In this document: in pieces, positions 44,873 to 45,478 of the stretch
Layout of the letters: every line of letters begins with the position of its first letter
Position numbering within the stretch: the first letter of the stretch is position 1
Assembly: GCA_020328155.1 (NCBI GenBank)
Contig: JAIXMX010000009.1
Coordinates: forward strand, 741 to 57,565
Direction: 5' to 3'
Source of the DNA: Candidatus Endomicrobiellum agilis
GTDB lineage: Bacteria > Elusimicrobiota > Endomicrobiia > Endomicrobiales > Endomicrobiaceae
DNA length: 56,825 nt
Made by a program: the position numbers and the translations under genes
Notes under the pieces: model-generated
The model's input: the letters and a program-made list of their open reading frames with translations, nothing else
Databases searched by the model: none
What the model was told of the DNA's origin: nothing

Positions 44873-45478
44873 ATGAAAATGAAAAAAATTATATGTATAT
44901 GTATATGTATATGTATATGTATATGCCTGACGTCTGGCTGTGATAAGTCGCTTAGTCATGGAAGACCTGCGAATGCTGTTGCTGAGGATACAGGAAGCAA
45001 GGCACCGCATTCGCTGACGTCAAATACTTCAAATGCTTCCGCTCCAACACCTGAGCCGAGTAAGTCTGCTCCGCCTGCGTCTGATACGGCTGATACAGGC
45101 AGCTCAGTTAGGAAATACGCTGTGAATGTTGTTCTTTGTATTGTTGCTCTTGCTGTTATTGTTGGCGGTTATGATGTGTTTAGATATTTCAAACCCATAG
45201 AAGTTATTATTCCTGCTCCTAATCCTACAGGTGATATCGCTTTTTTTACTTACCAAGCTAACTATCCCGCTTATAGACGTTGTTATCGTAATGATGTTGA
45301 GAGCGTTTCTTATACTTGGTATCTTGGTATCTTGCTAAAAAATAAAATGGTAACTAAACGCTGTTTTTGGGTTAATGAAGGTGGAAAGAATGAGGAAATT
45401 GATAGTAAAATAACTGTTTATGAATTGTGTGATGGTAATAGGAAGCTTGGTACATATTTTTATAAGCTTAATACCTAA
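44873..45478 (+). CDS. Lipoprotein L7 with Ile-Cys microsatellite signal peptide
   Basis: 201 residues. MKMKKI, then six Ile-Cys dipeptides, then LTSGC (Cys23) form the signal peptide. A polar Ser/Ala/Pro linker, a membrane helix near residues 80-100 (VNVVLCIVALAVIVGGYDVF) and a mixed domain of about 95 residues (AFFTYQANYPAYRRCYRNDV onward) follow. The start at the ATG of MKMKK is preferred to the upstream GTG frame because it places Lys residues before the hydrophobic core. Intact; function unknown. Confidence 0.72.
   Translation: MKMKKIICICICICICICLTSGCDKSLSHGRPANAVAEDTGSKAPHSLTSNTSNASAPTPEPSKSAPPASDTADTGSSVRKYAVNVVLCIVALAVIVGGYDVFRYFKPIEVIIPAPNPTGDIAFFTYQANYPAYRRCYRNDVESVSYTWYLGILLKNKMVTKRCFWVNEGGKNEEIDSKITVYELCDGNRKLGTYFYKLNT
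44891..44926 (+). repeat. Hexanucleotide microsatellite in a signal peptide
   Basis: Five ATATGT units and one ATATGC in frame, each coding Ile-Cys. Gain or loss of units changes the hydrophobic core by two residues per step. Confidence 0.9.

Follow-up and report, generated by a model that had tools for sequence, protein, structure and literature searches.

In-frame hexanucleotide arrays of variable length encode the predicted signal-peptide core of a lipoprotein repertoire in Candidatus Endomicrobiellum agilis

The genome of Candidatus Endomicrobiellum agilis, probably a termite-gut symbiont (Endomicrobiaceae), possesses 24 arrays of the hexanucleotide TATATG, all of which (24/24) code for a run of Ile-Cys pairs in the signal peptide of a putative lipoprotein, with sizes ranging from 3.0 to 12.8 units among the 24 arrays of this one genome. 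As a whole, comparison of the predicted products gives good support to a signal-peptide length that is hypervariable, and in frame, among paralogs of a single genome. The explanation that we put forward, at a confidence that is evenly balanced, is that, within a species-specific repertoire of plasmid type, the core of functional lipoprotein signal peptides is formed by a hexanucleotide array prone to slippage, which would thereby exert a graded effect on export.

The window gene and its array

The window, i.e. the whole analysed stretch of 56,825 nucleotides, belongs to a genome assembly of 1.286 Mb in 23 contigs, with a completeness of 99.91%. The features of the array-bearing gene found in it are as follows.

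44873-45478, forward strand: lipoprotein gene of 201 aa, delimited from the ORF and its paralogs; MKMKKI(IC)6LTSGC, then linker, transmembrane helix and small C-terminal domain
44873-44890, forward strand: n-region MKMKK and first Ile; in-frame ATGs at 44873 and 44879, the second conserved in paralogs
44891-44926, forward strand: hexanucleotide array (ATATGT)5 ATATGC, i.e. (Ile-Cys)6, the h-region of the signal peptide
44927-44941, forward strand: lipobox LTSG|C; S-G-C invariant in 20 aligned paralogs
44942-45121, forward strand: Pro/Ser/Thr-rich linker, of low confidence in the AF2 model
45122-45178, forward strand: predicted transmembrane helix, residues 84-102, KD 2.26 (AF2 helix 78-104)

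From 44873 to 44941 the codons are ATG AAA ATG AAA AAA ATT, five times ATA TGT, then ATA TGC CTG ACG TCT GGC TGT. Tandem Repeats Finder returned (TATATG)x6.0 at 44890-44925 with 100% matches, the final base (TGC for TGT) being the sole imperfection within 44891-44926; the array coordinates and the protein reading MKMKKI-(IC)6-LTSGC given in an earlier note on this DNA are thus exact. Given the host usage of ATA (48%) and TGT (44%), such codon purity has a probability of about 2e-4 for this single gene. A start codon downstream of the array was ruled out, since the paralogs agree in their 5' context and in the upstream ATG; in the window gene, no in-frame Met is present between the array and a point far into the mature protein.

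The ribosome-binding site of the window gene itself is weak by eye, and a promoter and terminator scan around it gave nothing clearly exceeding shuffles. No Pfam family was above cut-off for the window lipoprotein or for the other lipoproteins. The AF2 model, of low confidence (mean pLDDT 61), comprises a signal helix (4-20), the linker, a helix (78-104) and a small beta domain.

Genome-wide distribution of the arrays

Repeat counts were obtained by a pattern search of the genome and from sampled stretches. The search for (TATATG)3 gave 80 overlapping matches, which correspond to the 24 arrays, against an expectation of about 6e-5 arrays of at least three units per genome under a first-order Markov model. 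Twenty-two of the 24 match ATG-AAR-AAR-ANN-(ATATGT)3 exactly, and the remaining two also start lipoprotein ORFs. The arrays are perfect short repeats well beyond chance, located at a fixed place in many putative surface-protein genes, and 24 arrays at one gene position rule out chance or assembly noise as their source. The proposal of the earlier note that the repeat encodes the hydrophobic core of the signal peptide is borne out by the 24 paralogs.

In the window, all five repeats with a unit of 4-8 bp and a length of at least 18 bp sit at lipoprotein starts, while in five control stretches of 20 kb from the chromosome, no perfect repeats of this kind were found. A generally repeat-prone genome is ruled out by these controls. 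Many of the lipoprotein clusters (L009, L010, L017 and others) are located at contig ends, and the true family size may exceed the count.

Layout and divergence of the lipoproteins

These proteins display N-terminal Lys/Arg, a hydrophobic core and a lipobox of the form [LVI][ASTVI][GAS]C, followed in most members by a Pro/Ser/Thr linker, a single predicted transmembrane helix and a C-terminus that varies. The host encodes both Lgt (PF01790, C11:65785-66522) and signal peptidase II, LspA (PF01252, C11:65321-65740), each over cut-off. Two further lipoprotein sequences, one of them decayed, precede the window gene:

43799-44176, forward strand: array-free lipoprotein of similar layout (signal peptide, linker, two transmembrane segments), upstream of the window gene
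44330-44792, forward strand: decayed lipoprotein paralog just upstream of the window gene, without its start, with the lipobox altered to LISDC and with a broken frame

Signal peptides behave as modules, the same mature start occurring with array and plain forms, and one and the same signal peptide being joined to differing mature proteins. The GRLQSGGNAE-type mature start, for instance, has an array signal in C7:17814 and a plain one in C15:11193, with 65/75 nt identical after the Cys vs. 32/46 in the signal peptide. Mosaic genes occur as well: C11:839 combines a start in common with C11:1792 and a C-terminus in common with C20:64011, the breakpoint lying in the linker, about 115 nt past the array. 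Across 20 paralogs, the pooled pN/pS of the mature region is 1.43 (bootstrap 95% CI 1.25-1.66; linker 0.94-2.54), a value above 1 that is compatible with diversifying selection, although gapped alignment and gene conversion of recombining paralogs weaken this reading.

Other repeats were observed in mature parts. A 24-bp minisatellite (38388-38661) codes for FQANANG/FNAVPQG-type repeats in the lipoprotein at 38013-38825, and in L013 (C2:43000-52500; e.g. C2:46470-46862 and C2:48482-49159), lipoproteins consist almost wholly of degenerate GYDKDGYDR-type repeats.

Signal-peptide core length

A total of 72 lipoprotein-like ORFs, of which a few are probably not lipoproteins, was gathered from about 329 kb of stretches. 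The hydrophobic core has 11 residues in 43 of the 47 array-free lipoproteins. Among the intact array-bearing genes, cores of 11 (eight genes), 13 (three), 15 (six), 17 (three), 21 (two) and 29 residues (one) were found, in even steps only and never below 11. Cores longer than 11 residues are present in 15/23 array-bearing vs. 4/47 array-free genes (Fisher p 1.4e-6, in which independence is overstated, the paralogs being related). The only core below 11, nine residues from three units, belongs to C9:14202, a frameshifted gene.

The most direct comparison concerns C11:850 (5.8 units) and C11:1809 (12.8 units), in which the first 97/97 post-array bases are identical (98/100 overall) in spite of a seven-unit difference, so that the array evolves in length more rapidly than its flanks do in sequence. 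That copy-number changes proceed by two residues and keep the frame, as had been anticipated, is borne out across the 24 paralogs, this pair included. The lipobox is intact even in the 12.8-unit gene. As Ile precedes every Cys of the array, and the lipobox needs Gly, Ala or Ser at -1, the addition of units creates no extra lipobox.

In array-free paralogs, the core is ISVCLCICL or ICVCLCICL, from ATA TCT/TGT GTA TGT TTA TGT ATA TGT, which corresponds to four units in length. Their cores being already Cys-rich, the Cys-rich core is, by this comparison of paralogs, older than the repeat, and these codons are the probable seed of the repeat.

A second repeat class

Seventeen arrays of at least three ATAGG units were found in the genome, sister lipoproteins carrying 4-10 units. 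Most of them abut the ATG, apparently sometimes a GTG, of a sister lipoprotein, typically ending one base before the start. Those of the window are:

37982-38011, forward strand: (ATAGG)6, ending 1 nt before the ATG of lipoprotein 38013-38825, in ribosome-binding position
3659-3688, reverse strand: (ATAGG)6.0, abutting the ATG of lipoprotein 3106-3657
2537-2567, reverse strand: (ATAGG)6.2, abutting the ATG of lipoprotein 1933-2535
1370-1390, reverse strand: (ATAGG)4.2, abutting the ATG of lipoprotein 889-1368

With an AGG every five bases, the copies resemble stacked Shine-Dalgarno sites, and (ATAGG)n may possibly act as such sites in variable number. This pattern is absent from the other genomes of the family.

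Genomic neighbourhood and distribution in other genomes

Upstream of the window gene, one further feature is of plasmid type:

39180-40583, forward strand: initiator of plasmid replication, carrying a DnaA_N domain

The only matches to this initiator were on plasmids of Ca. Endomicrobium trichonymphae, at 38-42% identity. Judging from its gene content, the segment 39180-42011 is the remains of an integrated plasmid. Rep remnants were also found near two further lipoprotein clusters (C11:3753 and C1:212463), from which we infer that the genome holds islands of plasmid-type lipoproteins. A broken microvirus-like replication initiator, in two frames (40996-41463 and 41352-42011), follows the plasmid-type initiator.

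The (TATATG)n signal-peptide pattern was found in none of 76 other genomes of the family and in no viral contigs, and the GTDB 220 set, about 85,000 species genomes, yielded no second case of the array pattern. Its sole match there, Bacteroidales L105, was rejected as a chance occurrence, in the wrong frame and not in a lipoprotein. Concerning the mature parts, no homologues were present in 41 congeners or in plasmid records, and a profile search of relatives gave none either, its single match (0.12) not being significant. On this evidence, the predicted lipoproteins are a species-specific repertoire that resembles the one of Endomicrobium plasmids.

Possible roles of the arrays

Array length is proposed here to tune export or lipidation. 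Slipped-strand mispairing would add or remove units, with a change of two residues in the length and hydrophobicity of the core at each step. The route and rate of export, as well as processing by signal peptidase II, would then vary gradedly between paralogs and between sibling cells, whereas frameshifting repeats act as an on/off switch. The longest forms, with cores of 21-29 residues, may remain uncleaved membrane anchors, and (ATAGG)n at sister-gene starts would modulate translation in a similarly graded way. That an in-frame repeat in a signal peptide can grade secretion has a precedent in human CNDP1, for which length-dependent secretion is reported (PMC8128792). The wider idea that (ATATGT)n and (ATAGG)n are graded knobs on export/lipidation and on translation of diversifying surface lipoproteins, i.e. 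a rheostat contingency locus, is one that we regard as rather doubtful.

A serious rival, whose probability we put at appreciable if somewhat short of even, is that the repeat is carried neutrally: a Cys/Ile-rich h-region (ISVCLCICL) would have mutated to a short perfect repeat that slips freely because every in-frame hydrophobic length above a minimum would do, duplication and gene conversion would have spread it, and the length differences would have no selected effect. Most of what is observed in the arrays is accounted for by such tolerance. The likely ancestral codons (ATA TCT GTA TGT TTA TGT ATA TGT), of four-unit length, are found in array-free paralogs, 8 of the 23 intact arrays are at the ancestral core length, array length shows a lower bound only, and a tolerant h-region could carry the hydrophobic (IC)n. 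Alone, however, it explains neither the second, unrelated repeat at the starts of the same gene class nor the absence of such repeats from the sampled chromosome stretches; (ATAGG)n and the confinement to this gene class speak for a role under selection but do not prove it. Signal peptides with a long h-region can escape cleavage, and copy number might toggle topology, short arrays giving cleaved and lipidated proteins and those of at least nine units (core of at least 21) an uncleaved N-terminal anchor. Three natural genes with cores of 21, 21 and 29 residues, whose 19-residue KD means of 3.5 are well over the usual membrane threshold, agree with this, but genes of that length are few and the lipobox is retained even at 12.8 units, so that we consider it unlikely; a literature search found no paper evidently testing uncleaved long h-regions in lipoproteins. 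Distinctly unlikely, in our view, is that the array and the conserved 5' module serve mainly as homology anchors for gene conversion or shuffling of mature parts among paralogs: the mosaic C11:839 and the occurrence of the same mature starts with different signal peptides point that way, yet the observed breakpoint is away from the array, in the linker, and homology suffices for shuffling, a six-base repeat being unnecessary.

Should length matter, as in the graded tuning proposed above, the arrays would represent a bacterial case in which repeats control protein export in an analogue manner, simultaneously for dozens of surface proteins of a presumed symbiont. Were they neutral, the 24 signal peptides found in nature, each with between 3 and 13 copies of one dipeptide, would still provide a ready length series for tests of how the h-region, by its length, governs processing by signal peptidase II.

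Comparison with known systems

The earlier note knew of no described system of this sort, but related ones exist. In the opa genes of Neisseria, the part coding for the leader peptide contains CTCTT repeats, which act by frameshifting (PMC3960869, PMC5354566, PMC3899988), and the signal peptide of human CNDP1 includes a CTG repeat that is in frame, secretion being reported as length-dependent (PMC8128792, citing Riedl et al. 2007). Common to opa and the present family are a multigene set of surface proteins, a simple repeat in the signal-peptide coding sequence, a locus-variable unit number and mature parts that diversify and recombine. The opa unit, however, is of 5 bp and works as an on/off frameshift, whereas the present one is of 6 bp, always in frame, and affects core length only, each change being a whole codon pair that shifts no frame; moreover, opa proteins are beta-barrels, while lipoproteins of an unrelated organism are concerned here.

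Human APOB has a three-codon signal-peptide indel (PMC2674308). As in CNDP1 and APOB, an in-frame change in the signal peptide alters the number of hydrophobic residues, and the present arrays are likewise in-frame, variable-length repeats coding for h-region residues. Unlike them, CNDP1 and APOB are single eukaryotic genes, with one or three codons, an SPase I-type signal and no repertoire.

The Ca. Endomicrobium trichonymphae plasmids pTGRD1 and pTGRD2 (NC_020420, NC_020421) hold many short lipoproteins of similar layout, with signal peptide and lipobox, a PT-rich linker or transmembrane helix, and small genes beside a related Rep. Unlike those described here, they are without (ATATGT)n or (ATAGG)n at their starts. 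A tblastn of a window lipoprotein against the plasmids gave no match, nor did the pTGRD lipoproteins against the window segment, where the resemblance is confined to Rep and to a similar layout.

Variable lipoproteins of the Vlp/Vsp type in mollicutes also comprise many paralogs, with a conserved signal peptide and 5' module on divergent mature parts, and switch by promoter repeats or inversions. The layout is the same in the present family, but here the repeat is inside the signal peptide.

In the open-access literature, no bacterial in-frame signal-peptide repeat system was found, and the Endomicrobium genome papers searched make no mention of these genes. The bacterial signal-peptide repeat described here is a real and unusual in-frame variant, of putative function. 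Its arrays are an in-frame relative of the on/off repeats in Neisseria surface-protein genes, by which the signal is lengthened without breaking the gene.
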